NCBI GenBank assembly: GCA_021813945.1
Contig: JAKAJD010000001.1
Span: 399,072 to 432,411 of the forward strand
Reading direction: 5' to 3'
Source: a bacterium
GTDB lineage: Bacteria; Patescibacteriota; Microgenomatia; Curtissbacterales; GWA2-41-24
DNA length: 33,340 bases
Part shown: positions 18,493-31,344 of the stretch, in pieces
How positions within the stretch are numbered: the stretch's first letter is position 1
Layout: each line of letters starts with the position of its first letter
Translations under genes and position numbers: made by a program
Notes under the pieces: model-generated
Database searches by the model: none
The model's input: only the letters and a program-made list of their open reading frames with translations
Told to the model about the DNA's origin: nothing

Positions 18493-18494
18493 TT

Positions 18495-18788: not shown

Positions 18789-18820
18789 TACCAAACCCTT
18801 GGGGAAAAATTGCAATTATT

Positions 18821-19174: not shown

Positions 19175-19435
19175 ATGGACAAAGTCACGCTGCTTTCACT
19201 ATCGTTAGACCTAAAAAGGATAGTCCAGTCAATCCAAAGAGATTCAATGGAGAATGCCAACCGTTTTTCTAAAGAGGCAAAAAAGTGGCTTGCAGAATCT
19301 AAAAAAACCGACGACGAATATTTAAAAGGCTTACTTGCCAAAATCGAATCTACACTAAAATTGGAGAACAACTTAAAAAAAGCCGAAGATTGCCTGATGT
19401 ATTCCGTCCTTATCCAAAACCGCGCCCTCCAATAA
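19175..19435 (+). CDS. Small helical protein paired with the DUF5674-like gene
   Basis: The 86-residue protein is predicted to be a helical bundle (LSLDLKRIVQSIQRDSMENA, then KKAEDCLMYSVLIQNRAL). No family was recognised. It starts at the base directly after the stop of the DUF5674-like gene with its own Shine-Dalgarno site, so the two form a tight pair. It is the last gene before the repeat-separated array; the first boundary repeat begins two bases after its stop. Confidence 0.6.
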   Translation: MDKVTLLSLSLDLKRIVQSIQRDSMENANRFSKEAKKWLAESKKTDDEYLKGLLAKIESTLKLENNLKKAEDCLMYSVLIQNRALQ

Positions 19436-19436
19436 C

Positions 19437-19462
19437 AAATTCAACCGACAAAATTAAAACCC
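19437..19462. repeat. Boundary repeat A1
   Basis: Core TCAACCGACAAAATTAAAA, then CCC. It lies between two convergent gene ends, where no promoter is needed. Its 22-base core is identical to that of repeat A2. Confidence 0.75.
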
Positions 19463-19481
19463 GAAGCCTTTACCAACTTAA

Positions 19482-19907
19482 CTATCTAGCTAAATCAGAA
19501 ACTCTTTTAGTTGCACGATCATGTGCCTGGAGTATTTCATCTCTCAAATCTGGGTAACCTCTTAGCGCACAAAGCAATATGTCTCCAGGCGCGTCAGGTA
19601 TCATATCTTCTTCGACCCACAACTTTACAACTTTTGGGTCAATCTTGCCTTCGGAAAGGGCATCCATTGCATCGCCCACAGTTTGAGCCTGCTGGTTATC
19701 CCTAATATAGCTAAATACTTCAGCTGTCCTCCTGAGCTTATCATGCAATTCGCTCTCTCTTTGTGATGTATCAAATGGTGGTAAATTTGCAAGATCGGTC
19801 ATTTTAGCAATATAACTGTTAATATTTGTTCCACGTAAACTAACAGCTGAACTTCTTGATTCAGCTCTAAGTACGGCTCTAAAGGCTTCTTCAGATTTGT
19901 CAGCCAT
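19482..19907 (-). CDS. Hypothetical helical protein, array unit 1
   Basis: From ATG 19907 the protein has 141 residues, starts MADKSEEAFRAVLRAE and is predicted all helical, with no recognised family. A longer frame from 19931 adds eight residues (including a hydrophobic-basic stretch) and is not favoured. The C-terminal part (KLWVEEDMIPDAPGDILLCA) vaguely resembles segments of the proteins at 21259 and 21738. The gene is flanked by repeats A1 and A2, which define a unit of about 500 bases. Possible promoter in the A2 side: TTGATT, 17 bases, TGATAA. Confidence 0.6.
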   Translation of the reverse strand: MADKSEEAFRAVLRAESRSSAVSLRGTNINSYIAKMTDLANLPPFDTSQRESELHDKLRRTAEVFSYIRDNQQAQTVGDAMDALSEGKIDPKVVKLWVEEDMIPDAPGDILLCALRGYPDLRDEILQAHDRATKRVSDLAR

Positions 19908-19940
19908 ATATTTAAATCTTATCATAACCATTAATCTCCC

Positions 19941-19967
19941 AAATCAACCGACAAAATTAAAACCCCC
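19941..19967. repeat. Boundary repeat A2
   Basis: AAATCAACCGACAAAATTAA followed by AACCCCC, between divergent genes. Its AATCAA part reads as TTGATT, a possible -35, on the minus strand. Confidence 0.75.
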
Positions 19968-19979
19968 AAGTAAAAAAGC

Positions 19980-20007
19980 TTGCTTTACGAATAACTAGAG
20001 TTATAAT
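19980..20007 (+). promoter_or_regulatory. Promoter of the gene at 20015, leaderless
   Basis: TTGCTT (19980-19985), 16 bases, TATAAT (20002-20007), with the ATG seven bases downstream. Confidence 0.55.
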
Positions 20008-20014
20008 AAGCACC

Positions 20015-20626
20015 ATGTTTGCCGGATTAAAAGAACGCCTCTCCAGAAGACCAAAAGAAGCAAAACCCAAAACTATCCGTCTGGGCCAACTGCAAATAGG
20101 GATAAATCCGGACGAATTTAATCCGTTTATACACATACCCAATTGGCACGCACATAGTCTCGAAACAGCTATGGACCATGGCGTAAAACCTCTAACCTAC
20201 GACGAGATCATTGCCCAAATCGAAGAAAGCCATAGACGAAATGTTGTACTCTTCGATACTTCCCCAGTAGACGGAATGCCCGGAAATCATTTTAGATTGG
20301 TGGAAGACCAAACAGGCCAAACTAAACTTCAATTTTGTAACACCTTTGGTTTACTTGATAATAGAGGTCTGCTCCCCTTTAGTCCTCCAGAAGACTACGC
20401 CATGTTTACCGGGGCAACCATTTTGATGTTTCAAAAGGATGGCAAAGCTGTAAACCTTGGCGAGGCACAAAAAGCTTATCGCAGAAGGGCAACCATGTGT
20501 CCATCGTCACCGGGCGAGATAAGGAGTACGGGAGAGCTTGTTTTGTGGTCTAATGCCGAAGGAAAACTTGTGGCAAAGCATGGCCGTGGTTTTCAAATGC
20601 CTCTTGAACTTCAAATTCCTCAGTAA
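20015..20626 (+). CDS. Hypothetical protein, array unit 2
   Basis: The 203-residue protein is one of the few plus-strand genes of the array. No family was recognised. It begins with a basic helix (MFAGLKERLSRRPKEAKPK). The rest seems a mixed alpha/beta domain with HIPNWHAHSLETAMDHG (three His) and a FDTSPVDGMPGNHFRLVED stretch. The His/Asp residues could be catalytic or metal-binding, but no known motif is matched. There is no signal peptide. It is bounded by repeats A2 and A3. Confidence 0.6.
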   Translation: MFAGLKERLSRRPKEAKPKTIRLGQLQIGINPDEFNPFIHIPNWHAHSLETAMDHGVKPLTYDEIIAQIEESHRRNVVLFDTSPVDGMPGNHFRLVEDQTGQTKLQFCNTFGLLDNRGLLPFSPPEDYAMFTGATILMFQKDGKAVNLGEAQKAYRRRATMCPSSPGEIRSTGELVLWSNAEGKLVAKHGRGFQMPLELQIPQ

Positions 20627-20646
20627 ATCTCAATCGAGAAAGAGAT
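20625..20646. repeat. Boundary repeat A3 (degenerate)
   Basis: AAATCTCAATCGAGAAAGAG, a diverged copy of the core that lacks the TTAAAACCCC part. It lies between convergent gene ends and overlaps both stop codons. Confidence 0.5.
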
Positions 20647-21215
20647 CAGGATACTCTAACTAATGCTGGAACAGTTCTTCCTTCTATTCTTTTGCCGGCT
20701 TTATTGATCTTTTTCGCGAGCGGATCATCGTCTGGGAGTGCCAAAAGTTTCCCAAGTTCTAGATCCATATAACTCTGGTCACGGTCACCTTTATAAAAAG
20801 TGATAAGATCGCTGTGACCACTTTTTTTAAAAAAACTCTCCAAAAAGCCCCGGAATTTGTTGTTCGTAATAGTAAAAAACTTATTTATCTTAGTAATATC
20901 AATTTCACCAGAAGTCTTAACCCAGTTATTAAAACTATAAATCCCAAATAAAAACATTCTTATAGCATCATTGTCTGGGATGGGATCTTGATTATTTAAA
21001 CCGGCATAACCACCCGGTAAAAAGTCGCCACGTATGGAGTATTTGTCTTGTATTTCACGAAAGTCCATTGATAGCCCTGTATTACCAACCCTGACCAAAA
21101 AAGCAGTACCTTCACCTTGGGTTTTTGTAACAGTTCCATCTATTACAACCGGTTTCCTGTCCCAAGTTTCTAGAACTCTTACTCTTGAAGGCTTTTCCAA
21201 AACCCCTTCATCCAT
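20646..21215 (-). CDS. Hypothetical protein, array unit 3
   Basis: The 189-residue protein is not recognised. Its N-terminal third is beta-rich (SRVRVLETWDRKPVVIDGTV, then GTAFLVRVGNTGLSMDF). The C-terminal half is helical and charged, with KINKFFTITNNKFRGFLESF. No signal peptide, no catalytic motif. In minus-strand reading TACAAT lies six bases before the ATG, so the mRNA is predicted leaderless. Bounded by repeats A3 and A4. Confidence 0.6.
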   Translation of the reverse strand: MDEGVLEKPSRVRVLETWDRKPVVIDGTVTKTQGEGTAFLVRVGNTGLSMDFREIQDKYSIRGDFLPGGYAGLNNQDPIPDNDAIRMFLFGIYSFNNWVKTSGEIDITKINKFFTITNNKFRGFLESFFKKSGHSDLITFYKGDRDQSYMDLELGKLLALPDDDPLAKKINKAGKRIEGRTVPALVRVS

Positions 21216-21221
21216 AAGTTA

Positions 21222-21256
21222 ATTGTAACAAGAAATTGAATCGAGAAAATTAAAAC
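21222..21256 (-). repeat. Boundary repeat A4 with -10 box
   Basis: Core AAATTGAATCGAGAAAATTA then AAAC at 21233-21256. The adjacent TACAAT (21222-21227, minus strand) lies six bases before the start codon at 21215. Confidence 0.7.
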
Positions 21257-21258
21257 TT

Positions 21259-21699
21259 CTACTTCGAAGGCTTCACGCTTGGTATTGGTATTCCCTTGAG
21301 AATAACCCCATATTTACGCATGGCAGCAAGCATTTGTTCATTTTCTTTAACTACAGCCGCAACGCAGACAACCCTATCCCTAATTGTGGGAACCAGATCT
21401 ACCATAGATAAACGAGAAACTATATCCGCTGTTTGAGTATCGCCCTCAAGCCGTTTTCTTATTTCATACTCCAGCCTAAAACCCCTGAATTTTTGGGCTA
21501 ATATCGGACTAAAACCCTCAGGGTCTGTATCTGGAGTTACTACATCCATACATTCAGACAAGAATTTCCCAGAAAATAATGCCGTTTCCAGCTCTACAAC
21601 CGCAGGATCAGCCGATTCTAAAATAGAAGATGAATTTCCCTCTAGATGCTCAATTGCTGCACTGATTGCCGCCTGGGCTGCGTCATCTCTTTCTGCCAT
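21259..21699 (-). CDS. Hypothetical helical protein, array unit 4
   Basis: From ATG 21699 the protein has 146 residues, begins MAERDDAAQAAISAAIEHLE and is predicted to be mostly helical. It is acidic in its first half and ends in a Pro/Lys-rich tail (GIPIPSVKPSK). No family was recognised. A frame from 21720 would start upstream of the predicted transcription start, so 21699 is preferred. TATAAT lies six bases before this ATG. A SMVDLVPTIRDRVVCVAAVV segment loosely resembles the protein of unit 1. Confidence 0.6.
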   Translation of the reverse strand: MAERDDAAQAAISAAIEHLEGNSSSILESADPAVVELETALFSGKFLSECMDVVTPDTDPEGFSPILAQKFRGFRLEYEIRKRLEGDTQTADIVSRLSMVDLVPTIRDRVVCVAAVVKENEQMLAAMRKYGVILKGIPIPSVKPSK

Positions 21700-21705
21700 T
21701 CGAAA

Positions 21706-21737
21706 ATTATACAAAATCAAACGAGAAAATTAAAACC
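21706..21737 (-). repeat. Boundary repeat A5 with promoter
   Basis: ACAAAATCAAACGAGAAAAT followed by TAAAACC, next to TATAAT (21706-21711 on the minus strand). The core lies directly against the stop codon of the next unit. Confidence 0.8.
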
Positions 21738-22049
21738 TCAATCTGCTGAAACCAATGGTTCTTCGGGACTTCTGAAAGCCTCCAGGGCCTCCCTCCATAA
21801 AGTACGGGTTGGCTCGGAGGAATATGAAAGCGCAAGACATATGTTATACCCCGCTACCTCAATTGGATGTCGCCAGGCCGTATCATCCAAAATGTTCATG
21901 GAAACCCATTCGGCATATTCAGCCATAAACTTTCTAATTTCCGCAGGATCGTCAAGAACGTCAACCGCATTTAAACACAGCGCCCTCTTGGGGCGGGCCG
22001 CAATAACCCGCTCAAGAACAGATTGTTCCCTAGTAACCTCTACGGTCAT
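21738..22049 (-). CDS. Hypothetical protein, array unit 5
   Basis: The 103-residue protein is predicted helical. It starts MTVEVTREQSVLERVIAARP and carries a Trp-rich second half (EYAEWVSMNILDDTAWRHP, then TRTLWREALEAF). No family was recognised. TATAAT lies eight bases before the ATG in the minus-strand direction, so it has its own leaderless promoter. Bounded by repeats A5 and A6, unit of about 350 bases. Confidence 0.6.
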   Translation of the reverse strand: MTVEVTREQSVLERVIAARPKRALCLNAVDVLDDPAEIRKFMAEYAEWVSMNILDDTAWRHPIEVAGYNICLALSYSSEPTRTLWREALEAFRSPEEPLVSAD

Positions 22050-22057
22050 AGCTGCAA

Positions 22058-22095
22058 ATTATACAAAATCAAGCGAGAAAATTAAAACCCCGCGG
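22058..22095 (-). repeat. Boundary repeat A6 with promoter
   Basis: ACAAAATCAAGCGAGAAAAT then TAAAACCCCGCGG at 22063-22095. TATAAT at 22058-22063 serves the unit 5 gene. This is close to the consensus form of the family. Confidence 0.85.
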
Positions 22096-22107
22096 AAGAA
22101 AAATAAA

Positions 22108-22419
22108 CTAGGCTTGTGGCAAAAGACCTCTTAACTGTGCTTGTCTTTCTGGGGGAAGCTGGCTTATTGGAACAACGCTAATTTCTCTATACGGAACCCC
22201 CTCTTCTTGCAACTTACGCTCAAATATTTCTGCCAAGCTACCGTGAACAACAACCGATGTTGGATTAGGCATATCATAACTAACAGGTTCCTCCTCTTCC
22301 ATACGGTCTAAAACACCCAACCCTCTAAGTATGCCAACCTCATCTTTAAACACAAAGGCGCGTTTATTTGGCCTTGGTGCTTCGCCACCTTTTTGTGCAG
22401 GATCCATCTCTTCACTCAT
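22108..22419 (-). CDS. Hypothetical protein, array unit 6
   Basis: The 103-residue acidic protein starts MSEEMDPAQKGGEAPRPNKR, a flexible N-terminus, followed by a small alpha/beta part (TSVVVHGSLAEIFERKLQEE, VPYREISVVPIS). No family was recognised. It shares a unit with the hydrolase gene just upstream: no repeat separates the two, but a TATAAT box (22427-22432, minus strand) overlaps the hydrolase stop codon and gives this gene its own leaderless start seven bases later. Confidence 0.6.
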   Translation of the reverse strand: MSEEMDPAQKGGEAPRPNKRAFVFKDEVGILRGLGVLDRMEEEEPVSYDMPNPTSVVVHGSLAEIFERKLQEEGVPYREISVVPISQLPPERQAQLRGLLPQA

Positions 22420-22426
22420 CTTTCAA

Positions 22427-22432
22427 ATTATA
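22427..22432 (-). promoter_or_regulatory. -10 box inside the end of the upstream gene
   Basis: TATAAT in minus-strand reading, directly after the TGA of the hydrolase gene and seven bases before the ATG at 22419. No boundary repeat occurs here. Confidence 0.5.
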
Positions 22433-23065
22433 TCAATTCCTTAATCCAACTACGAGGCTCGCTATTTTGCGATTAACCCTTTCATTCCATATATTATTTT
22501 GCTGTAACCAACCATGGATCTTATGAGGGCAGTTCGGAATGTACATTATCTCTTTGAACTTTGCTTTGCCCAAGCTCGCACCAAGCAACTTTATCAACTC
22601 CCTAGGAATAACCTCATCTTTATCACCTATGAATACAACAACATTGCCTGCAAACCCACGCAGAATTTTAAAGGCGTCCGAATTCCTCCAGCTGTCTTTT
22701 TTTCTAATTATTTTTGAAAATTTTGCGCTAAATGGAACGTCAAAAGCACGAGTATCATAAACTGCCGGCGCAAACAAAATTAAATTTTCTACTCGATATT
22801 GTTCAAGAAGCTTAATTGCAACATAACCACCCATACTGGAACCGCAAAGATTCAAAGGCTCCTTTAAATTAAAACTTTTAATTGCCACCTCGGCCTCTTT
22901 AATGCGACGCTCAAGACTAGACTTGGAGATCCCCTTCCCGCTATGACCGCTGAAATTAAATGTATAGCTCTGAATATTTTTCCCGCCCAACAACTTCTTT
23001 AAATAACCAACCTTGTTTTTATTCGAAGTTCCCGCTCCATGGAGAAACAACATTTGAGGCTTCAT
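22433..23065 (-). CDS. Alpha/beta-fold hydrolase, array unit 6
   Basis: The 210-residue protein has a full catalytic triad: S77 in CGSSMGG, D150 in GDKDEVIP and H181 in CPHKIHGW, with LHGAG near the N-terminus as oxyanion region. It resembles the YqiA/RBBP9-like small hydrolases, which act as esterases. Substrate unknown. It is unlike the hydrolase at 17758 in sequence outside the motifs. TATAAT lies nine bases before the ATG. It ends in an ordinary TGA stop. It is one of the few array genes with a known fold. Confidence 0.88.
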   Translation of the reverse strand: MKPQMLFLHGAGTSNKNKVGYLKKLLGGKNIQSYTFNFSGHSGKGISKSSLERRIKEAEVAIKSFNLKEPLNLCGSSMGGYVAIKLLEQYRVENLILFAPAVYDTRAFDVPFSAKFSKIIRKKDSWRNSDAFKILRGFAGNVVVFIGDKDEVIPRELIKLLGASLGKAKFKEIMYIPNCPHKIHGWLQQNNIWNERVNRKIASLVVGLRN

Positions 23066-23074
23066 TCACAATGA

Positions 23075-23108
23075 ATTATACAAGACGAGAAAATTAAAAC
23101 CCCGCGGG
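23075..23108 (-). repeat. Boundary repeat A7 with promoter
   Basis: CAAGACGAGAAAATTAAAAC then CCCGCGGG at 23081-23108, with TATAAT at 23075-23080 (minus strand). The link between the TATAAT and the core is five bases shorter than in repeats A5 and A6, so the core is not at a fixed -35 distance. Confidence 0.8.
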
Positions 23109-23121
23109 CTAATTTAAATTC

Positions 23122-23388
23122 CTAATAAACTTCGTTGTGTGTTCCTATTCTGGTGCAAAATACTTTGTCGCCTGAAAAATGGATAATAATCCTAATATCC
23201 CCGGTTACCGAAACCGACCAGTTATTTTCCCCGGCCAGTTTATGGAGCCTAAGCGATGGCCTGCTAATATCGGCAGAAAGAAGCTTTAATGTTTTGGCAA
23301 TCTTGGTTCGAAGTTGAGGGTTTTTCTTGACTAATTTTTTGGTTTGTTTTTGAAATACAGCGGAAAGGACTAACTCATAGCCGCTCAT
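23122..23388 (-). CDS. RelE/YafQ-type toxin
   Basis: The 88-residue protein fits the RelE/ParE toxin fold: FQKQTKKLVKKNPQLRTKI helix pair, then LRLHKLAGENNWSVSVTGDI, RIIIHFSGD strands and a HNEVY end that recalls the C-terminal catalytic region of YafQ-like mRNA interferases. Such toxins cut mRNA on the ribosome. Its start overlaps the antitoxin stop by four bases (ATGA), so translation is coupled. Both lie between repeats A7 and A8 as a single two-gene unit. Confidence 0.88.
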   Translation of the reverse strand: MSGYELVLSAVFQKQTKKLVKKNPQLRTKIAKTLKLLSADISRPSLRLHKLAGENNWSVSVTGDIRIIIHFSGDKVFCTRIGTHNEVY

Positions 23389-23618
23389 AAGCTCTTCATG
23401 AAGCGGTCAACGTCTCCTGCACCTTTAAGCACTTTCGCACGACCCTTTTTAAGGTCTTCTTTTGCCTCCTGTGCCCAAAGGTCGTATTTGTTTCTGGAAA
23501 TCATCTGCCTAATTGAATCGCGCACTAAGTCGGAAAACGAAACGTAGTGGCCTTTTTTGACCAAATCACTCGCCTCTTCTTTCAACTTCTCCGGCAAAGA
23601 TATATTAATCGTGTTCAT
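23385..23618 (-). CDS. Ribbon-helix-helix antitoxin
   Basis: The 77-residue protein begins with a typical RHH (CopG/ParD) strand and helices: NTINISLPEKLKEEASDLV, then GHYVSFSDLVRDSIRQMI. The C-terminal tail (from about residue 50) is charged and should wrap the toxin. RHH antitoxins also bind their own promoter, here the TATAAT region at 23625-23630, so autoregulation is expected. The gene precedes the RelE-type toxin, the normal order. Confidence 0.88.
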   Translation of the reverse strand: MNTINISLPEKLKEEASDLVKKGHYVSFSDLVRDSIRQMISRNKYDLWAQEAKEDLKKGRAKVLKGAGDVDRFMKSL

Positions 23619-23624
23619 ACATTA

Positions 23625-23677
23625 ATTATACAATATTAAGTCAAAAAATCAACCGAGAAAATTAAAAACCCCGCAGG
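23625..23677 (-). repeat. Boundary repeat A8 with promoter
   Basis: AAAAAATCAACCGAGAAAAT then TAAAAACCCCGCAGG at 23643-23677. In minus-strand reading TTGATT (23647-23652) is 16 bases from TATAAT (23625-23630), and the ATG is six bases further on. Here the core does supply a -35. Confidence 0.8.
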
Positions 23678-23682
23678 AGAAA

Positions 23683-24135
23683 TTATCGCTCTTCAGGTTT
23701 TAGGGTATCCTTAATTTGGATATTTTCGATAATAATCATTGCTTGTTGTGCACCCAATCCTCTTGTTAGCTCAGCGGTTGCCCAATCCATGAGCTCCCTG
23801 TGATCTAACCTTCTAGCAACAGTATATGTATGCTTTGCCAATGCTACTAAAGCTTCTTGCCTGGCACTAGGTGATTTATATTGTTCCTCTATATATTTAG
23901 CCCTTTCCTCCGCAAGGGAATCTTCAAAATTTCGAAGAACATCCATACGGCCTTCACCCTGCATAGTCTCTTTAAAATCTGCAACAGTAACTTCCTCACC
24001 ATCACGACCAATCATTACCTGTTCCTCATCGTAAATTGTTTCAACAGAAGTAAATCTAAAATTAACTCCCGGCCTCTGAACTTCCTCTCTTTTTCTTTCT
24101 TGTCCTCCTCCAGGAAATTGAATTATTTTACCCAT
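23683..24135 (-). CDS. Hypothetical protein, array unit 8
   Basis: From ATG 24135 the protein has 150 residues (MGKIIQFPGGGQERKREEVQ at the start). A GTG two codons upstream is possible but lies closer to the -10 box. The first third is basic and probably flexible; the rest is helical and acidic (RNFEDSLAEERAKYIEEQYK, then HRELMDWATAELTRGLGAQQ). No family recognised. TATAAT lies eight bases before the ATG. Bounded by repeats A8 and A9. Confidence 0.6.
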   Translation of the reverse strand: MGKIIQFPGGGQERKREEVQRPGVNFRFTSVETIYDEEQVMIGRDGEEVTVADFKETMQGEGRMDVLRNFEDSLAEERAKYIEEQYKSPSARQEALVALAKHTYTVARRLDHRELMDWATAELTRGLGAQQAMIIIENIQIKDTLKPEER

Positions 24136-24143
24136 AGGCACGA

Positions 24144-24197
24144 ATTATACAAAATCAGGAGAAAATCTCAAAATCGAGAAAATTAAAACCCCACGGG
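24144..24197 (-). repeat. Boundary repeat A9, internally duplicated
   Basis: The core occurs twice in tandem: AAAATCAGGAGAAAATC followed by TCAAAATCGAGAAAAT, then TAAAACCCCACGGG. TATAAT is at 24144-24149 (minus strand). The longer copy suggests partial duplication of the element. Confidence 0.75.
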
Positions 24198-24206
24198 AAA
24201 AAAATT

Positions 24207-24671
24207 CTATCTTTTTGGATATAATGCCTCAGCACACTCTCTCTCCATAAAATTAGCAACCACTTCTATGTCTGTCTCCGCCCGACCCAAAAATTCCAGT
24301 GTACCTACATCGATTCTTTGTGGCCAGACGTCATACTTCGAAACCCCATATACCACTCTTTTAACCTCCGCAAATACCATCGCAGAAATGCACATCGTAC
24401 ACGGCTCGCAAGTGGAATACACTGTAACATCCCGGAGTTCCTTGCCTCCTAAAACCGCACCAGCTTTTCCCATCGCTTTAATTTCTGCATGGCGGGATTG
24501 GTCACTATCTAAACGCTGGGAATTATGTTCAGCAGCGAGTACCCTACCTTCCTTCACAAATACACTCCCGCATTTAAGCGGTTCAGTCGATTCCTGAGCG
24601 ACTGCAATCGCCAAACGCATAAATCCCCGATCCAACTCGCCTAGTTCTGTATTTCGAATTACCTCAACCAT
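24207..24671 (-). CDS. Nucleoside/nucleobase deaminase (TadA/GuaD-like)
   Basis: The 154-residue protein is a zinc-dependent deaminase of the cytidine-deaminase superfamily. The HAE motif is at 61-63 (zinc ligand H61, proton shuttle E63) and the PCxxC motif is at 90-94 (ligands C91 and C94, in TCEPCTMC). The upstream EHNSQRLDSDQSRHAEI also fits TadA or guanine deaminase. It could act on tRNA adenosine (wobble position 34), guanine or another base. The C-terminus differs from classic TadA, and the location in an accessory array argues for a free-base deaminase; this is inference. TATAAT lies eight bases before the ATG. Confidence 0.9.
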   Translation of the reverse strand: MVEVIRNTELGELDRGFMRLAIAVAQESTEPLKCGSVFVKEGRVLAAEHNSQRLDSDQSRHAEIKAMGKAGAVLGGKELRDVTVYSTCEPCTMCISAMVFAEVKRVVYGVSKYDVWPQRIDVGTLEFLGRAETDIEVVANFMERECAEALYPKR

Positions 24672-24679
24672 AGCTGGGA

Positions 24680-24727
24680 ATTATATAGAAACGAACCTGA
24701 AAATACAAAAATTAAAAACCCCGCGGG
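24680..24727 (-). repeat. Boundary repeat A10 with promoter
   Basis: ACAAAAATTAAAAACCCC then GCGGG at 24705-24727, lacking the TCAACGAG part. TATAAT at 24680-24685 (minus strand) is eight bases before the deaminase ATG. It is the last copy with the CCCCGCGGG end. Confidence 0.7.
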
Positions 24728-24745
24728 AGAAAAATTATTTTGGAG

Positions 24746-25498
24746 CTAATGCTTTACCACTTCTAGATACACATGTTTGCCAACAATATTATGTTTGAAA
24801 TGTTCAACATTCGAGACCTGACCTCCGATATCATAAACAAGGAAAAAAATATTGCTGTAAGTTGTCCCATAAGATCTTATATCAGCGTTTATTTCTTCTG
24901 TTACTCTTTTTGGTCCGGCTTTATCTTTTACAATCTTTGCCTCGATGCAAAAATCTAAGGTGTTGAACACAAAATCTGGAATTGATTCCTTCACACCTGT
25001 TTTCACTCTCCCAGTTTCTCTATCAAAATCACTTCCTCGCACATATCCCGCACCTATCAACAGATCCTCAATTTTTTCTTGAATTTCCTTTTCATTTGTC
25101 GGCGTAGACCTAACTATGCTTCTTAAATTCAACCTTATCAACTTTATTACTTTCTGAATTTCCTCATGTTCCTCACCTAGTTTAGCCCTCAAAAAGGCAC
25201 AAATTTTCCCAGACTCAATCAATATTCCGTCCATAATATTTTTTCGAGTTTGATAAACACTTTTGGCGAAATTCATCTTACTAGCATCGAATGTATAAAA
25301 TTGAGCATCAGGAAAATCTTTAATTACATCCAAAACTAAAAATTGTAACTGCTGTGCAAACGTTATATAACCTGAAAAAGCAGTCATTTTTGCATACTGG
25401 CTTTTATCCCTCGATTCCATTTCGTAAATTAACTCAATCGATTTCAGAAATTCCTCAGCACGATTTAATAAGTAAATTAATCTGTCTTTATTAATCAT
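24746..25498 (-). CDS. PD-(D/E)XK nuclease-domain protein
   Basis: The 250-residue protein has a helical N-terminal half (to about 130) and a C-terminal nuclease-like domain. The core motif is IPDF with D175, then CIEAK with E186 and K188, the PD-(D/E)XK pattern; an EEINADIRSY helix and FFLVYDIGG strand follow, and the chain ends VVKH. This end resembles the PDDEXK_13-type domain found in small stand-alone nucleases, often of unknown or defence-related role. All metal-binding residues are kept, so an active DNase is plausible. Promoter in repeat B1 (TTGATT, 17, TAAGAT), giving a leader of about 20 bases. Confidence 0.8.
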   Translation of the reverse strand: MINKDRLIYLLNRAEEFLKSIELIYEMESRDKSQYAKMTAFSGYITFAQQLQFLVLDVIKDFPDAQFYTFDASKMNFAKSVYQTRKNIMDGILIESGKICAFLRAKLGEEHEEIQKVIKLIRLNLRSIVRSTPTNEKEIQEKIEDLLIGAGYVRGSDFDRETGRVKTGVKESIPDFVFNTLDFCIEAKIVKDKAGPKRVTEEINADIRSYGTTYSNIFFLVYDIGGQVSNVEHFKHNIVGKHVYLEVVKH

Positions 25499-25516
25499 AA
25501 ATTATGCTAATACTCA

Positions 25517-25556
25517 GCAAAAATCTTACGCTCAAGTTTTGCAAAAATCAATTCGG
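25517..25556 (-). repeat. Boundary repeat B1 with promoter
   Basis: First copy of the second form. It includes AATCTTACGCTCAAGTT, shared with B4, and later AAAATCAATTCGG. In minus-strand reading TTGATT (25546-25551), 17 bases, TAAGAT (25523-25528). GCAAAAATC occurs twice within it (25517 and 25541). Confidence 0.75.
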
Positions 25557-25557
25557 C

Positions 25558-25586
25558 TTGACATGACAAGCGAATTTAATCATAAT
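25558..25586 (+). promoter_or_regulatory. Promoter of the nucleotidyltransferase-like gene, leaderless
   Basis: TTGACA (25558-25563), 17 bases, CATAAT (25581-25586). The ATG at 25594 starts seven bases later. It is divergent from and adjacent to the promoter in repeat B1. Confidence 0.65.
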
Positions 25587-25593
25587 TTCCACC

Positions 25594-26589
25594 ATGTCCG
25601 GCACGCCGGAACGTTCACCCATAACTCTACCTGAAGAATTTTTTCAAAGGTTAAAACCCCAGGACGCGCAAGCCGTCCACTCTATTGTTGAAACCATCAG
25701 GCAACTTGCAGAAAATTACGGTGACGATAACAACTATATCCCCGGAGGATACGGAAGCGCCGGATTTTTCGGCGTTTATGCAATTGGCGGATACGTATCA
25801 AAAGCAGGCGAAAGGCCGGATATAGACCTTTTGGTTGTCACAAATGCACATTGGAAGCAGAGTTACAATTCACCCACCAGAAAATACGATCCCGATGACC
25901 CAATCCTATATAGTGGCGACCATGTTGCCGGCAGTTTACAAGAGGCTTTCGAACAAAAAGGATATAGGGTTGTACTTTTGGAACATATCCCAAGCGACTA
26001 TGACGAAGTTGGCGTAAACCCTAAATCAATGTTGCGCCTTACTCCAGCCCCCCAATTAGGTGCAAAGCCAATCGATGTTGCATACGTCAAAACTACTTAT
26101 GAAAAGGGCGTCGATGATTTGTTCGATTTTGAAGAAGAAGATACAGACGGTGATGGTAATCCGCTTCCAAGAATTCCCCTACTTCAAGTAGAAGACCTCG
26201 GCCGGGCAGGCGAATTGCGGCCTAAACTTTCAAATACCAAACTTAAAATCAAATCGCTGGAAATTTATTCGGAAGGTAATGCTTCTGACAACAATCTTTC
26301 CCCTATCATGTCAACAACAAATTCTCTAGGCATTCTTCCTTCAAAACCCCCGACTGGCTGGCCATTTTTAAACAATATGGTGGTCGGAAGACCAGCATGG
26401 TCAAGCAAATCACCAAATTCCCTCTTTAATTTGCGCAGCCGTCCTTCGTCCAAAACAGCATTTCCAAAGCTAACTTGCGGAATTTCATCCGAAATCTCGG
26501 ATACAATCGGCTTATATTCATCGCAAAAATTACACCAGGTCGCGCTAATGACTAAGACTGCCGAATCATTATCTCGAAAATCATCATAA
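25594..26589 (+). CDS. Nucleotidyltransferase-fold-like protein with aberrant 3' end
   Basis: The open frame codes for 331 residues, but only about the first 215-220 look like a real protein. Residues 60-85 (YAIGGYVSKAGERPDIDLLV) contain a GG and a DID of the DNA polymerase beta-type nucleotidyltransferase fold, and a later PIDVAYVK could provide the third aspartate. From about residue 217 the frame crosses boundary repeat B2 and then reads antisense through the thioredoxin gene, where the sequence becomes Ser/Asn/Pro-rich and loses protein character. The original stop therefore seems lost. The substrate is unknown; such folds include antitoxin/toxin NTases. Confidence 0.6.
   Translation: MSGTPERSPITLPEEFFQRLKPQDAQAVHSIVETIRQLAENYGDDNNYIPGGYGSAGFFGVYAIGGYVSKAGERPDIDLLVVTNAHWKQSYNSPTRKYDPDDPILYSGDHVAGSLQEAFEQKGYRVVLLEHIPSDYDEVGVNPKSMLRLTPAPQLGAKPIDVAYVKTTYEKGVDDLFDFEEEDTDGDGNPLPRIPLLQVEDLGRAGELRPKLSNTKLKIKSLEIYSEGNASDNNLSPIMSTTNSLGILPSKPPTGWPFLNNMVVGRPAWSSKSPNSLFNLRSRPSSKTAFPKLTCGISSEISDTIGLYSSQKLHQVALMTKTAESLSRKSS
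26239..26256. repeat. Boundary repeat B2 inside an open frame
   Basis: AAACTTAAAATCAAATCG, between the end of the nucleotidyltransferase-like gene and the stop of the thioredoxin gene. It is a convergent boundary, so it has no promoter role here. Confidence 0.7.
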
Positions 26590-26618
26590 TTGGCATCAGT
26601 TATTCTTTCGACTGCCAT
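26265..26618 (-). CDS. Thioredoxin-like protein
   Basis: From ATG 26618 the protein has 117 residues. The active site is WCNFC in ISATWCNFCDEYKPIV (canonical WCGPC), and the cis-proline is in LPTTILFKNGQ. The rest follows the thioredoxin fold with a conserved GG near the end. It should reduce or exchange disulfides; the NF dipeptide between the cysteines is unusual and will alter redox potential. Promoter in repeat B3. A longer frame from 26639 lies upstream of the predicted start and is not favoured. Confidence 0.88.
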   Translation of the reverse strand: MAVERITDANYDDFRDNDSAVLVISATWCNFCDEYKPIVSEISDEIPQVSFGNAVLDEGRLRKLKREFGDLLDHAGLPTTILFKNGQPVGGFEGRMPREFVVDMIGERLLSEALPSE

Positions 26619-26622
26619 AACC

Positions 26623-26661
26623 GCAAATCTTACACACAACTAAACTTAAAATCAAATCGGG
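26623..26661 (-). repeat. Boundary repeat B3 with promoter
   Basis: AAATCTTACACACAACT then AAACTTAAAATCAAATCGGG. In minus-strand reading TTGATT (26650-26655), 17 bases, TAAGAT (26627-26632), eight bases before the thioredoxin ATG. Confidence 0.8.
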
Positions 26662-26670
26662 CAACCTAAA

Positions 26671-26699
26671 TTGATTATAGGTTAAAAATATGCTATTCT
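26671..26699 (+). promoter_or_regulatory. Promoter of the two-gene plus-strand unit, leaderless
   Basis: TTGATT (26671-26676), 17 bases, TATTCT (26694-26699) with extended TG. The ATG at 26706 begins six bases later. Confidence 0.55.
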
Positions 26700-26705
26700 T
26701 CGCAC

Positions 26706-27071
26706 ATGGCAAAGAGAAAAATAGAAGGTGAAGGAGCTGCCGGCGCACTCTCTAAACTTGATCAGGCAACAAACACATTTGATGCCGCAATAATCAGTCC
26801 AATTTTTAACCCTCAATTAGTCTCGGACAGTTTAATTAACATCCAAACCCAGGCTTTAACCGGTGGCCTTCCACCCGCTGAAGCATTCCGAAAGCTCGAA
26901 AGACATGCTTCTAGGGCAAGTCGAAGAGCAGCAGAACTAAACGACGGCGAAAGTGAATCTAAATTCAGAGACATGGCTACATCATTTGAAGCCGCCATTG
27001 CTATGCTTTCACCTAAACCCCAAGAGGCTCCGCAAGCTTCGCAGCTTGTAACATCCTACGCTAAAGGTTAA
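26706..27071 (+). CDS. Small helical protein, first gene of a two-gene unit
   Basis: The 121-residue protein is predicted helical and rich in Ala/Ser, with LERHASRASRRAAELNDGES in the middle. No family recognised. Its stop is followed immediately by the ATG of the 706-residue gene (TAAATG), so the two are co-expressed and perhaps act together, for instance as a partner or chaperone of the large protein; this is inference from position only. Confidence 0.6.
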   Translation: MAKRKIEGEGAAGALSKLDQATNTFDAAIISPIFNPQLVSDSLINIQTQALTGGLPPAEAFRKLERHASRASRRAAELNDGESESKFRDMATSFEAAIAMLSPKPQEAPQASQLVTSYAKG

Positions 27072-29192
27072 ATGCCGGAAAAAAAAGCATATGTTCCCTT
27101 CGACGGGGTAAGCGTGCCATTTATAAAACATCCCGGCTTTCATGGGGCTAGTGTCAGCGAAGAATATTTTCCGTTTAGTGATAAACTCGACAACTTAGCA
27201 TGCGCATTTATACCTGAAAATCAAAGCGAGGAAGATGATTCCTCTAGCCACCATCGGATTTCCGACATTCATGGCCGTTCTTTCCAAATAAACTTCGGCG
27301 AGAATACCGCAGTTCTTTGGGCAGACCAATACGGCAATATTTTCACTTCGCTTGGAACAAAAGGCAGCAGCTTAGAACACCCTGTAGCGATAAACAACCC
27401 CCAAGCACCGGGCAACTTTTCATTCTACGGCCTCCAGGACAGCCGCTCGATTTCCAGAATAGTTATTGCTTCTCAACTTATGAGGCAGGCTAATATAGAC
27501 ACCGAGCTTATTGCTCGGATATATGAACCTTTAGAATTTCCTATTGAAGGAGCAAGCTTAACCCGCGACCAGTTCAAAAAACGCTTAGTCAAAGACGCCT
27601 GGGACAGGACTGAAAATAAGGCAGGCGAAGGGCTGGCTGAAAGAGAAGACGTTCCCGCGCTGAGCCAATCTCTTAACCAAACGGCATTTCTGATAACTTT
27701 GCGGGGCATGCGGGTACCTGAAAGGCTTGCAGATCTAGCCCAAGCTTCCCCAAAAGACAAAGAGCTTATATTAAAAAGGGCAATTACTGCGGTCAATGTT
27801 TACGAATCAGCCCGCGCAAAAATTGCCGGAACGGTTCCAATAAAATTTGACCCTGACTCACCACAAAGCGTTAGTGAATACCTCACCGATTATATCCCCC
27901 AAAACTTAGGTAGAAACATGGCAAAACTGCACCGCCTAGGGCTTGCGTTTCGAAGCGCAAGCGAGCTGAATATAACCTTATCCGGGGGGTTCCCAGATCT
28001 TGACACGGTAAAAGGCCAAGCACTTGGGCTAGGAGACGAACCGATCACAAAAGACGACTTCGCCAACGATTTATGGGAAGCTGCTTTCACATTTGAAAAA
28101 CTCGACCTCTATATGCCGGGGAAACTAACAAAAGAAACTTTAAATAAAGCCAAAAGAAAAATGTTGCGAACCTATACGCTTGAATCGGGGCTGGAAGAGG
28201 ATGTCGTTACAAATTTTCAAATATTTTCCGAGCTAATCGACACCGAAACCGTAAAAAACAACAACGAACTTGTAGTCTACTACGGCGATTTACTCTCAAG
28301 GCAAACAGGCGTTGTACCCAGCAAAGAGCGGACTTATCAAAGTGTAAGTGATCGACTCTTTGACCCAAACCTCTCGGCATCAGAAGTTGCAAGCCAAGCA
28401 ATAAGCGAAGCCATCCGACTAAAAAAGGCAGTGCTCCCTGAAGGCGCAGACAAGCTTTTAAGATTTGAAGAGCAAACAAAAGCGGAAAACAGTAATCTTC
28501 AGGATTTGATCACTGATTCAATGTACAGCGACCTTCTTAACAAGACTTACCAGGAAACACTGGCAAAGCTTCAACACTCGGAAACAGCCGCGGTTCAGGG
28601 CCTTTCCGAAACAGAAATCGCAAACATCGCTTTTACCATTGCTCTTGGCCACGTAGACCAATTCATAAAAGCCATTCCACAAGAAATGTGGGATAGCGCG
28701 CTTTTTGCAATGTACTCAAGATACATACGTGATATCGGCTTAACTGCTAAACTACCTTTTCTAAGGGAATTTACCAACCAAGACCCCCAGAACGTCAGCT
28801 CCCCCATTTCCGGTTTTACAAAGGACGGTGAAATAAGGGTTGTCGTAAACAATGTTCCGTTGAGTAAGTTTTTCCAGGAGATTTCCTATGGCCAAGAACA
28901 TTTGGACGTCCAGGTATTTAATATGATCGACATGCCAAGAGGCTGCAACTTTTTAGTGCAAGGTAGCGCTTCGGATCCAAAGGTCTTAGTTTGCGATGGC
29001 CGCATTATAAACCCAAATTATCTTGGGGAAAATTCATTCATGCTCGATACAACAGACTGTAACTATATAGCCTGGGTTTCAAAAGATGGGAAATATTACG
29101 TGCAAACAAACTCCGGGGAACAATTCGTGCGCGACGCTCTTGAAAAGTCCGGCGCAACTAATACTGGCTTAAACATAACGAGCTTCGAGTAG
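27072..29192 (+). CDS. Large unrecognised protein with a faint kinase-fold signature
   Basis: The 706-residue protein is the largest in the window and is not recognised. No signal peptide or membrane helix. The middle has an LGRNMAKLHRLGLAF segment followed by N300 in LNITLSGGFPDLDTVKG with D309 and D311; the asparagine-to-aspartate spacing of nine equals that of the metal-binding residues in SelO-type protein AMPylases, and the upstream SRIVIASQLMRQANIDTE may be a lobe helix. The glycine-rich loop and lysine cannot be assigned. The C-terminal third (from about 550) seems alpha/beta with several Cys. It follows the small gene without any gap. The kinase-fold idea is tentative. Confidence 0.55.
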   Translation: MPEKKAYVPFDGVSVPFIKHPGFHGASVSEEYFPFSDKLDNLACAFIPENQSEEDDSSSHHRISDIHGRSFQINFGENTAVLWADQYGNIFTSLGTKGSSLEHPVAINNPQAPGNFSFYGLQDSRSISRIVIASQLMRQANIDTELIARIYEPLEFPIEGASLTRDQFKKRLVKDAWDRTENKAGEGLAEREDVPALSQSLNQTAFLITLRGMRVPERLADLAQASPKDKELILKRAITAVNVYESARAKIAGTVPIKFDPDSPQSVSEYLTDYIPQNLGRNMAKLHRLGLAFRSASELNITLSGGFPDLDTVKGQALGLGDEPITKDDFANDLWEAAFTFEKLDLYMPGKLTKETLNKAKRKMLRTYTLESGLEEDVVTNFQIFSELIDTETVKNNNELVVYYGDLLSRQTGVVPSKERTYQSVSDRLFDPNLSASEVASQAISEAIRLKKAVLPEGADKLLRFEEQTKAENSNLQDLITDSMYSDLLNKTYQETLAKLQHSETAAVQGLSETEIANIAFTIALGHVDQFIKAIPQEMWDSALFAMYSRYIRDIGLTAKLPFLREFTNQDPQNVSSPISGFTKDGEIRVVVNNVPLSKFFQEISYGQEHLDVQVFNMIDMPRGCNFLVQGSASDPKVLVCDGRIINPNYLGENSFMLDTTDCNYIAWVSKDGKYYVQTNSGEQFVRDALEKSGATNTGLNITSFE

Positions 29193-29205
29193 AAATTGCT
29201 CAATC

Positions 29206-29224
29206 AAACTTAAAATCAAATCTG
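29206..29224. repeat. Boundary repeat B4
   Basis: AAACTTAAAATCAAATCTG, between two convergent gene ends, again without need of a promoter. Confidence 0.7.
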
Positions 29225-29226
29225 AA

Positions 29227-29790
29227 TTATCGTTTTAAAAATCGATACGCGGAAATGCGTAGATTGCTGGCATATTGATTAAAACCGGTGTCAGTTCCTT
29301 CTCGTTCCATAAGAAGATTTCTGTCTATTTCTTGACCATCTAGAGAAAAGATTCCCACTGCAAGCCTAACATACCTAGGCGTAAGCGTACCCCCAATCTC
29401 CTTGTACTTATACACCCGCCCGGGCATTTGAAGACCGGGTCTTTCTTTAAACATTTCGTACTCTGAAACGGATCTTTCCAAAACATGAAGCATCCGTTCG
29501 ATAAAATCACCCTGAGGGACAGGATCAATTGAATCGTTCCACATTCTAAACCCTCGTAAAGCAATTTCATCTTTTCTTGCTAAAGCTTCCTTAACTCTAC
29601 TTACTGCTGCCCGCAAATCCAACAGCTCCTCTTCCCAAGACATTTCCCCTACCGGTTTTAAATCTTCTGGAGCCTTTTTTCTGGCAGTACCAATTACAGA
29701 ATAATGCGCTAAGCGCGAGATGGCTTGCCTGAAAGCAGCTTCATGCTCAGGCTTCATCCTGACAGTAACATCGACAAATTCATGGCTCAT
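29227..29790 (-). CDS. Hypothetical protein, array unit
   Basis: From ATG 29790 the protein has 187 residues. No family recognised. It starts with a beta-alpha segment (EFVDVTVRMKPEHEAAFRQA) that resembles a ferredoxin-like half, followed by charged helices (EEELLDLRAAVSRVKEALAR) and a beta-rich YVRLAVGIFSLDG region. TAAGAT of repeat B5 lies eight bases before this ATG; the longer frame from 29811 begins upstream of the predicted transcription start and is rejected. Confidence 0.6.
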   Translation of the reverse strand: MSHEFVDVTVRMKPEHEAAFRQAISRLAHYSVIGTARKKAPEDLKPVGEMSWEEELLDLRAAVSRVKEALARKDEIALRGFRMWNDSIDPVPQGDFIERMLHVLERSVSEYEMFKERPGLQMPGRVYKYKEIGGTLTPRYVRLAVGIFSLDGQEIDRNLLMEREGTDTGFNQYASNLRISAYRFLKR

Positions 29791-29833
29791 GCGCAAAAAT
29801 CTTACGCTCAAGTTAGCTTAAAATCAAATCGGG
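29791..29833 (-). repeat. Boundary repeat B5 with promoter (most complete)
   Basis: AATCTTACGCTCAAGTT then AGCTTAAAATCAAATCGGG, the fullest copy of form B. TTGATT (29822-29827), 17 bases, TAAGAT (29799-29804) on the minus strand. It continues into GAAAATTTATAAA, resembling the GAAAATTAAAA of form A. Confidence 0.85.
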
Positions 29834-29849
29834 AAAATTTATAAATAGG

Positions 29850-30446
29850 TTATATTACCAGTTCAACCTTACTTCCTAACCTCTCTGAAAATCCATCCCT
29901 AACCCCCAAATTGGGTTCAGGAGCATTAACGCGTGGGAATGTCACACTTTCGTCGAATCGACCTATCTTTTTTAATATCTCCTCACGCCTTACACCGATT
30001 ACATCTGCTAAAGTCTGAACGGGTTCGAGGGTATCTGTCGTATATTCTCCTACCCTAAATCCAAAACCTAATTTTTCCACAAGTTTCGGGTCGTGATTAT
30101 TGGTAAATGTATGAATAATTTGTATGTCTGGATTCCCTGATATTTTCATCAAAATTGCCTTAATAAGAGCTTCTGCCCTTAATGTATTCCAATTTTCTCT
30201 AAACCCCTCCATTCTGTACTTTGAAGCAATTTTTGCCCTTGCTCCCGAAATTTTTATAGCGTTTACCAACGCCGAAACTTCTAAATCTTCAGTTAATCTT
30301 GCCCTAAGTTCCGGGAAGCTTTGAGACCATTCGGCCTCCAAAACCCTAACTGGAAGATGACATTCCCGACGATATACCGCATACCCCTGGTGAACAAATA
30401 CTGCTTCCTCACCTTTACCAGATTTTGGTGCACCTCTTTCGCCCAT
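29850..30446 (-). CDS. Hypothetical protein, array unit
   Basis: The 198-residue protein has a mixed alpha/beta make-up. Its centre (NWNTLRAEALIKAILMKISG, then PDIQIIHTFTNNHDPKLVEK, LGFGFRVGE) looks like a GNAT-type or small Rossmann-like pattern (helix, strand, NNHDPKLVEKLGF recalls the end of GNAT acetyltransferases), but the acetyl-CoA loop is not clear. The promoter in repeat B6 is TTGATT, 17, TAGAAT, with the ATG seven bases after the -10. Confidence 0.6.
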   Translation of the reverse strand: MGERGAPKSGKGEEAVFVHQGYAVYRRECHLPVRVLEAEWSQSFPELRARLTEDLEVSALVNAIKISGARAKIASKYRMEGFRENWNTLRAEALIKAILMKISGNPDIQIIHTFTNNHDPKLVEKLGFGFRVGEYTTDTLEPVQTLADVIGVRREEILKKIGRFDESVTFPRVNAPEPNLGVRDGFSERLGSKVELVI

Positions 30447-30452
30447 GTCGGG

Positions 30453-30485
30453 AATTCTACCCTCAAATTAGCTTAAAATCAAATC
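30453..30485 (-). repeat. Boundary repeat B6 with promoter
   Basis: AATTCTACCCTCAAATT then AGCTTAAAATCAAATC. In minus-strand reading TTGATT (30477-30482), 17 bases, TAGAAT (30454-30459). Confidence 0.8.
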
Positions 30486-31099
30486 TTGGATTTTGGCCTT
30501 CTGAACCTTGCAATAATAACCGGTTTCTTAACCTTATCGCCCGTTCCCGCCTCTTCCTTAACACCATGCTCTTTATATGATATTTCAACATCCCTACTTC
30601 TAAGCTGGGAAAAACCCATCGAAGCGAACAATTTACCGGACCATGTTGCTTTAGCCGCCCTTGCCTTGTTTCCATGCCTTCCGTACTCATCGTTAAATAC
30701 TAACCAATTGTCACTATAAGGACCCCATTCGCCCTGGCAAATAGTAACTTCTTCACCGTTTTCTCCAAAATATGCTATTGCGAAACGAACAAATCTCGCG
30801 GCAAACATATCCGGATGCGGAGTGTCGCCCCATGCACATTCATCTGTTATTCTTCTTCTTGTCTGGACACTAAACGAAAAAACTCCGTTTGTAACTATAG
30901 CCTCCATCCCCCTATCGGGGTTCGACTTATCTACAACTTTAAGTGAGTTTTCAAAAGCCTCAAGTTCCAGTTCTGCTCCGGATTCCCCCTTCACAATTCC
31001 ACAATGTAGGCCTTTTTTTTCAAAATCTTGGATATATTTTGAAAAATCGATACCGTATTCGCCCGTGACGCACGGATAAGTTAACGCCTCTGCCCGCAT
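30479..31099 (-). CDS. Hypothetical protein, array unit
   Basis: The 206-residue protein is not recognised. Its first half has several cysteines (CVTGEYGIDFSKYI, HCGIVKGESGAELELEAFE). The middle (RFVRFAIAYFGENGEEVTIC, then GEWGPYSDNWLVF) is beta-rich with many Trp and Gly. The end is basic (KKPVIIARFRRPKSKI). No signal peptide. Its stop overlaps repeat B6. Promoter in repeat B7, with a 13-base gap from -10 to ATG, longer than in other units. Confidence 0.6.
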   Translation of the reverse strand: MRAEALTYPCVTGEYGIDFSKYIQDFEKKGLHCGIVKGESGAELELEAFENSLKVVDKSNPDRGMEAIVTNGVFSFSVQTRRRITDECAWGDTPHPDMFAARFVRFAIAYFGENGEEVTICQGEWGPYSDNWLVFNDEYGRHGNKARAAKATWSGKLFASMGFSQLRSRDVEISYKEHGVKEEAGTGDKVKKPVIIARFRRPKSKI

Positions 31100-31110
31100 A
31101 GATATTTTGA

Positions 31111-31146
31111 AAATGTTACGCCCTGCAGAACTTTAAATCAAATCGG
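31111..31146 (-). repeat. Boundary repeat B7 with promoter, last copy
   Basis: AAATGTTACGCCCTGCAG then AACTTTAAATCAAATCGG. In minus-strand reading TTGATT (31136-31141), 17 bases, TAACAT (31113-31118). The array ends here. Confidence 0.75.
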
Positions 31147-31341: not shown

Positions 31342-31344
31342 AGC

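Follow-up and report, generated by a model that had tools for sequence, protein, structure and literature searches.

A run of about 20 mostly unrelated one- or two-gene units, strung together by copies of one short intergenic repeat in a small bacterial genome (GenBank assembly GCA_021813945.1, contig JAKAJD010000001.1), raises the question of whether such a locus collects genes in the manner of an integron, or whether its repeats have some other role. A preliminary description of the 33,340-nucleotide stretch of DNA analysed here ('the window') had identified about 17 such units between positions 19437 and 31146, and had suggested an integron-like or other cassette system in which the repeat is a recombination or insertion site by which genes are gathered. 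We first asked whether the array was real, then whether its repeats were confined to it, and finally whether its units had been exchanged in a related genome.

The described array was confirmed, and the case for it became stronger on further analysis. Repeat families D1–D6 recovered the elements where they had first been noticed, and the curated set comprised 16 clear elements, 3 remnants and 1 junction without an element among 20 junctions. The array extends from 18.8 to 31.9 kb and contains 19 units, separated by gaps of 13–95 nt. It is therefore longer than initially described: a DUF5674 plus 86-aa unit (18836–19435) and a membrane protein plus HTH unit (31153–31773) also belong to it, because both have moved in the array of a sister species (genome G001, described below). 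The repeat is present in two related forms rather than one. Form A (19.4–24.7 kb), read on the minus strand, is TTTTTCTCCCGCGGGGTTTTAATTTTCTCGnTTGATTTTG-TATAAT, while form B (25.5–31.1 kb) is CGATTTGATTTTAAG..TTGAGCGTAAGATTTT; the two share the core CG(n)TTGATTTT. The features of the array, in order, are as follows (matches are to Pfam unless noted).

18793..18812 (minus): degenerate A element at the array end, next to the stop of the conserved flank gene 18465–18788; AATTTTTCCCCAAGGGTTT aligns with AATTTTTTTCCCGCGGGGTTTT at the same edge of the DUF5674 unit in G001
18836..19435 (plus): inverted unit, DUF5674 protein (PF18924) and 86-aa protein; one of two units shared with the sister species, at a different place there (88–89% amino acid identity; 617 bp at 88% DNA identity, bounded by elements)
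19436..19461 (minus): A element
19482..19931 (minus): unit, 149-aa protein of unknown family, with no Pfam or PHROG match
19938..19978 (minus): A element
20015..20626 (plus): inverted unit, 203-aa unknown protein with its own predicted promoter
20627..20645 (minus): remnant element (CTTTCTCGATTGAGATTTA)
20646..21215 (minus): unit, 189-aa unknown protein
21232..21257 (minus): A element
21259..21702 (minus): unit, 147-aa unknown protein
21712..21737 (minus): A element with −10 TATAAT
21738..22049 (minus): unit, 103-aa protein of unknown family
22064..22103 (minus): A element
22108..22419 (minus): unit, 103-aa unknown protein
22421..22436 (minus): remnant element (GGAATTGATATAATTTG)
22433..23065 (minus): unit, alpha/beta hydrolase (PF12146, 8.5e-11)
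23073..23115 (minus): A element
23122..23618 (minus): two-gene unit, YafQ/RelE-like toxin (23122–23388) and RHH/CcdA-like antitoxin (23385–23618), both assigned by Pfam
23640..23684 (minus): A element
23683..24135 (minus): unit, 150-aa unknown protein
24142..24204 (minus): A element with two successive cores; TGATTTTGTATAATTCGTGCCTATGG also precedes an unrelated methyltransferase gene in G001
24207..24671 (minus): unit, cytidine/deoxycytidylate-type deaminase (PF00383, 2e-20)
24691..24734 (minus): A element, core identical to the G001 consensus
24746..25498 (minus): unit, DpnII/MboI-type nuclease-like protein (PF18742, 3.8e-10)
25517..25556 (minus): B element
25594..26250 (plus): inverted unit, nucleotidyltransferase-like gene (motif read by eye) whose frame runs on through the next element to 26589
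26231..26258 (minus): B element, right half lost
26265..26618 (minus): unit, thioredoxin-like protein (PF00085, 4.5e-8)
26619..26660 (minus): B element
26706..29192 (plus): inverted two-gene unit, 121 aa and 706 aa, unknown; the 706-aa protein has only patchy homologues in the class and none in G001
29198..29222 (minus): B element, −10 half lost
29227..29787 (minus): unit, 186-aa unknown protein
29790..29832 (minus): B element (−35 TTGATT, 17 nt, −10 TAAGAT)
29850..30446 (minus): unit, 198-aa unknown protein
30446..30487 (minus): B element
30479..31099 (minus): unit, 206-aa unknown protein
31107..31146 (minus): B element
31153..31773 (minus): unit, 142-aa membrane protein (31345–31773) and XRE-type HTH protein (31153–31341), both assigned by Pfam; shared with G001 (66% and 85% amino acid identity, unit edges aligned) but at the opposite end of its array

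We next examined whether the repeat is particular to this locus, since a core motif scattered genome-wide, or a related genome with the same genes in the same order, had been set out beforehand as observations that would count against a cassette array. Neither was found. A search of the genome with the core pattern, allowing up to 3 mismatches, returned 12 hits, of which 8 were at the array and 4 elsewhere, as compared to 3 hits for a reversed-pattern control. Three of the hits elsewhere, at C2:127–132 kb, initially suggested a second array, but these were weak matches inside coding sequence where we read it, and that possibility was rejected. Among 374 genomes of the class, no genome outside the genus was multicopy for the repeat, and the only multicopy genome was that of one congener, G001. 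A search of genome contigs likewise found multiple copies only in G001 (5 exact copies in JAKALT010000024.1), with one chance-like copy in each of five other records. The repeat was not found in viral contigs, and no Rfam family was found in the window. No multicopy repeat of this kind was observed at the four loci examined that encode homologues of the 706-aa cargo protein, and a search of genome contigs with the nuclease-like protein returned no relative.

The sister species G001, in which the genes flanking the array are 77–92% identical, carries an 18-unit array with 17 clear elements on its contigs C31 and C30. The same two forms of the element are present in the same order (a B half, then an A half), and in G001 as well the repeats are confined to the array. 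Only two units are shared between the two arrays, and those sit at different positions in the same orientation; outside these two moved units, nothing but the repeats is shared. Gain, loss and reordering of units between repeats is therefore supported, although the comparison is between species rather than between strains, only two genomes carry the array, and no movement within a species has been seen. G001 is also a low-coverage metagenome-assembled genome (2x according to its contig title), though its contigs overlap exactly over 124 bp. The G001 cargo includes three toxin-antitoxin pairs, a methyltransferase and mostly unknown genes.

Two further observations in G001 bear on where units begin and end. 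A unit duplicated within that genome is homologous from the core of the upstream element to the last base of the downstream element (TAAGATTTT) and not beyond. In addition, the RelB/YafQ-type operon of G001 has a homologue without array repeats in another genome (G007), while in G001 a B element is joined 2 nt before the native −35 box of that operon.

The preliminary description had placed the element on the 3' side of each gene, as attC lies in integron cassettes. We found instead that the element fills the whole junction, and that its right half corresponds to a predicted promoter of the next forward unit, with the −10 box located about 6–13 nt before the ATG. A promoter-like score of 9 or more out of 12 was observed at 42% of array starts, as compared to 1.8% of random positions. 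Judged from sequence alone, the repeat thus contains, for most forward units, a sigma-70-type promoter-like sequence placed for a leaderless start. However, in scans of both the A and B hits and the curated positions, all 33 clear elements in the two arrays point one way, although 11 of 37 units (including 4 of the 19 in the window) carry genes on the opposite strand. The repeat therefore belongs to the joint, and not to the gene.

The presence of promoter-like sequences suggested an alternative, in which the repeats are only regulatory DNA: a shared promoter-operator under one regulator (for example the XRE-type HTH protein of the array), kept alike by selection in a region that varies by ordinary horizontal transfer. 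The clear −35/−10 spacing in B elements, the predicted leaderless starts and the retention of the HTH gene in both arrays are consistent with this possibility, and strong promoters under shared regulation would also stay conserved. We nonetheless consider it unlikely, since the 11 inverted units lie behind an element pointing at their 3' end and several have a predicted promoter of their own, since a B element in G001 precedes an operon that keeps its native promoter, and since two unit edges coincide with elements. An ordinary terminator was also rejected, because the C/G core has at most a 3-bp stem and keeps its orientation next to inverted genes.

We then asked whether the array might be a decayed true integron (a CALIN) with attC sites too divergent to recognize. 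Its architecture and cargo do resemble those of sedentary integrons (reviewed in PMC8618304), including toxin-antitoxin pairs, unknown genes and sites that are alike within one species. The elements, however, folded no better than shuffled sequence (mean z +0.2 to +0.7, and above zero on both strands), and paired RYYYAAC/GTTRRRY boxes were found only at the level of shuffles; the repeats are conserved in sequence, not in structure. The tyrosine recombinases of the two genomes also gave no integron integrase, which a CALIN does not need to have: the three that were scanned scored 57–110 bits against TIGR02249, for which the cutoff is 265, and the other two found are the sister-species counterparts. 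None lies at the array. This reading is therefore already largely refuted and appears very unlikely. A search with a dif-like pattern (a 28-bp site with XerC and XerD arms around a 6-bp spacer) returned only chance-level hits, and not the elements; the array is not a Xer dif module.

The preliminary interpretation is thus partly supported: turnover of units between repeats is borne out by the sister species, while 'integron-like' holds only as an analogy and the role of the elements as recombination sites remains an inference. We believe, with fair confidence, that the best explanation is a hypervariable cassette array, specific to this genus in the data searched, in which each unit is one gene or a two-gene operon joined to the next through a 20–45 bp repeat. 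The analysis itself demonstrates that the repeat is the conserved part of the locus and the genes are replaceable, that units differ almost completely between sister species, that shared units have moved without changing orientation, that the repeat keeps one orientation whichever way the adjoining gene points, and that for most forward units it contains the promoter-like sequence described above. What we infer beyond this is that units are gained, lost and moved by recombination between directly repeated elements, so that orientation is kept, and that a newly joined forward unit would be expressed at once from the promoter half of the joint.

No exchange enzyme was found, and we lean only slightly toward homology-guided exchange of imported or duplicated units, in the manner of phage PeSL repeats, over a dedicated trans-acting site-specific recombinase. 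ComEC is present in both genomes. Elements of 20–35 identical bases are short for RecA-dependent recombination, however, and no crossover base pair could be fixed. The alternative, an undescribed site-specific system in which the element is the recognized site and a recombinase encoded elsewhere in the genome excises and integrates units as IntI does in integrons, is possible but tentative. The uniform orientation of the sites, the sharp edges of unit homology and the short conserved core are consistent with it, and candidate enzymes (Xer-type tyrosine recombinases, two large serine recombinases in each genome and one Y1 transposase in each) exist in both species. None of these genes is at the array, the two tyrosine recombinases shared by both species resemble XerC/XerD best, and the core has no inverted-repeat arms that we could see. 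The A and B elements also stay in separate halves in both species, which fits homology dependence at least as well.

A more speculative form of this alternative, which we regard as doubtful but not excluded, is a gene-cassette system unrelated to integrons in which a short promoter-bearing element is itself the recombination site, operated by an unrecognized recombinase encoded in trans, so that every captured forward unit would arrive at a ready leaderless promoter. Integrons are the known bacterial device for collecting single genes as cassettes. A second design, with no folded site, no local integrase and a promoter built into each joint, would show that cassette arrays arose more than once. 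It would also give a small-genome bacterium a dedicated place for turning over toxin-antitoxin pairs, nucleases and unknown genes without disturbing the rest of the chromosome. The question of how unrelated genes come to carry the same site, which is shared with integrons, becomes testable in a locus of about 20 units with two site families. Literature searches for such arrays in candidate phyla found nothing relevant among the papers searched.

Comparison with described systems places the array as follows. The dif modules of Acinetobacter plasmids (PMC13141974) are likewise small gene modules, toxin-antitoxin genes among them, that are bounded by short sites and shuffled, but pdif sites have a XerC arm, a 6-bp spacer and a XerD arm and come in both orientations, while the elements described here lack that anatomy and all point one way. 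REP/RAYT repeats are also short and intergenic, and a Y1 transposase gene exists in both genomes, but REPs are scattered and hairpin-forming, while these repeats are confined to one locus and are not structured. The PeSL promoter-terminator repeats of T4-type phages (Arbiol 2010 and Comeau 2014, as cited in PMC4503421) are promoter-bearing intergenic repeats that bound small orphan genes in a hypervariable region and are held to mediate shuffling; they are found in phage genomes and contain a stem-loop, while the present elements have no stable stem-loop, sit in a bacterial chromosome and also bound genes in the opposite orientation. Sedentary chromosomal integrons and CALINs share with this locus tandem one- or two-ORF units, mostly unknown genes plus toxin-antitoxin pairs, a site of fixed orientation at each junction, sites that are homogeneous within a species and turnover between species. 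They differ in that no attC boxes or fold, no IntI and no attI were found here, in that the site carries a promoter-like sequence for the next unit whereas integron cassettes are mostly promoterless, and in that nearly a third of the units are inverted. Read as a cassette array reshuffled by recombination at promoter-bearing repeats, the locus is closest in logic to sedentary integrons and to the PeSL repeats of T4-type phages.

We first examined the organization of the locus. The window is positions 399072-432411 of contig C2 of a 1.13 Mb genome (referred to below as G000) assembled in three contigs, whose size and gene content suggest, by inference, a candidate-phyla bacterium. Between two bounding genes lie 19 units of one or two genes, separated by gaps of 13-95 nt. 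Read on the minus strand, 16 of the 20 junctions hold a clear repeat and 3 hold a remnant, while the junction before the membrane-protein gene holds none. The repeat exists in two forms, and the locus is laid out (in window coordinates) as follows.

18465-18788: conserved gene bounding the array
19.4-24.7 kb, elements read on the minus strand: form A of the repeat, TTTTTCTCCCGCGGGGTTTTAATTTTCTCGnTTGATTTTG followed by TATAAT
25.5-31.1 kb, elements read on the minus strand: form B of the repeat, CCGATTTGATTTTAAG followed by TTGAGCGTAAGATTTT
31860-33050: FAD-dependent oxidoreductase gene bounding the array

The core common to both forms is CG(n)TTGATTTT, which corresponds to the AAATCAA plus CG named in the preliminary description. 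The element at 24142-24204 is an A element with two successive cores and no gene between them, as if a unit had been lost. In addition, the frame of the inverted nucleotidyltransferase-like gene (25594-26589) runs through the B element and antisense through the thioredoxin unit (26265-26618), as if the joint had removed that gene's own end.

The repeat in the array is more than a chance pattern. A search of the whole genome with the A core, allowing 3 mismatches, gave 12 hits, of which 8 are in the array. Of the 4 others, the three at C2:127-132 kb lie in coding sequence where we read it, and the fourth is a weak hit just outside the window. The B pattern has 3 hits in the genome, all of them in the array. 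Among 374 genomes of the class, only this genome and one congener (a sister species, G001) have more than one copy of the A core, and among 84,980 species genomes only one record, JAKALT010000024.1, which is a contig of G001, has several exact copies.

The array could be compared between two species, the only two known to have it. G001, a low-coverage MAG, carries the same kind of array across two contigs (C31 and C30) that overlap exactly by 124 bp. Its array comprises 18 units and 19 junctions, with 17 clear elements and 2 remnants. The A core in G001 is TTTTTCTCCCGCGGGGTTTT and the B element is AATTGATTTTTGCCTCATTTGAGCGTAAGATTTT, and in both species the B half comes first and the A half second. 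The genes flanking the array are 77-92% identical in protein, but within the arrays the only shared DNA is the DUF5674 unit, the membrane + HTH unit and the repeats themselves. The two shared units have changed place: the membrane + HTH unit is first in G000 and last in G001, whereas the DUF5674 unit is last in G000 and in the middle of G001. Both keep their orientation relative to the repeats. The cargo of G001 includes BrnT/BrnA, RelB/YafQ and HTH/Gp49 toxin-antitoxin pairs, a methyltransferase and unknowns, while that of G000 includes a YafQ-like toxin pair, a hydrolase, a deaminase, a DpnII-like nuclease, a thioredoxin and unknowns.

Several lines of evidence indicate that the repeat belongs to the joint between units. 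All 33 clear elements point the same way, but 4 of 19 units in G000 and 7 of 18 in G001 are inverted, so the element cannot simply be the promoter or terminator of each gene. In G001, a complete B element points into the 3' end of an inverted gene that has its own promoter-like sequence (C30:1549-1962, read by eye). Another B element stands 2 nt before the native −35 box of the RelB/YafQ operon, whose homolog in G007, a family relative without the array, has the same promoter without the element. In G007 the homologous RelB/YafQ-type pair (positions 7366-7895 of the locus examined) sits next to the alpha/beta hydrolase gene that flanks the array in the genus, hinting that resident genes can become units. 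A unit duplicated within G001 is homologous from the core of its upstream element to the last base of its downstream element, and not beyond. Finally, across species, the 26 bases TGATTTTGTATAATTCGTGCCTATGG stand before two unrelated genes, start codon included.

The repeat is also promoter-like, as judged from sequence alone. In B elements, TTGATT and TAAGAT are 17 nt apart, and in many array genes the −10-like hexamer ends 6-13 nt before the ATG, which is the distance of a leaderless start. When start positions were scored against the promoter consensus, 42% of array starts gave 9 or more of 12 matches, as compared to 1.8% of random positions.

We then tested the elements and the recombinases of both genomes against known systems, and on this evidence the array is neither an integron nor a Xer dif module. 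The elements are no better folded than shuffled DNA on either strand, and they lack paired attC boxes. The tyrosine recombinases of both genomes are Xer-like and score far below the integron-integrase cutoff, and the copies in G000 lie about 40 kb from the array or on another contig. A search for dif anatomy found none in the elements, and no Rfam family matches.

Other candidate enzymes are encoded elsewhere in the genomes. Each genome encodes two large serine recombinases; those of G000 are encoded by two genes, for proteins of about 550 aa, near the end of contig C3 (C3:1-14000). In G001, a large serine recombinase gene (positions 11951-13597 of the locus examined on contig C24) abuts and overlaps the start of ychF, and is probably part of a mobile element integrated at ychF; in G000, ychF (16191-17270) lies near the array without it. 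Each of the two species also has one Y1 (IS200/RAYT-type) transposase gene (in G000 at C3:173058-173384); the pattern searches found no A or B element outside the arrays. Both genomes encode ComEC.

We believe the most likely explanation is that units flanked by directly repeated elements are exchanged, lost or duplicated by recombination at those elements. In this view, the strict direct orientation of the repeats explains why moved units keep their orientation, and the promoter half explains how a new forward unit can be expressed. The repeats themselves, the orientation rule, the turnover and relocation of units between the two species, and (in two cases) the edges of unit homology are shown by the sequence comparisons, whereas recombination at the core, the mode of import of new units and their expression are inferred. 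Given the presence of ComEC, the large serine recombinases and the Y1 transposases, both homology-guided uptake and a trans-acting enzyme are possible. The separation of A and B elements into halves in both species, together with the lack of any recombinase at the locus, inclines us slightly toward homology-guided exchange, as has been proposed for the PeSL repeats of T4-type phages.
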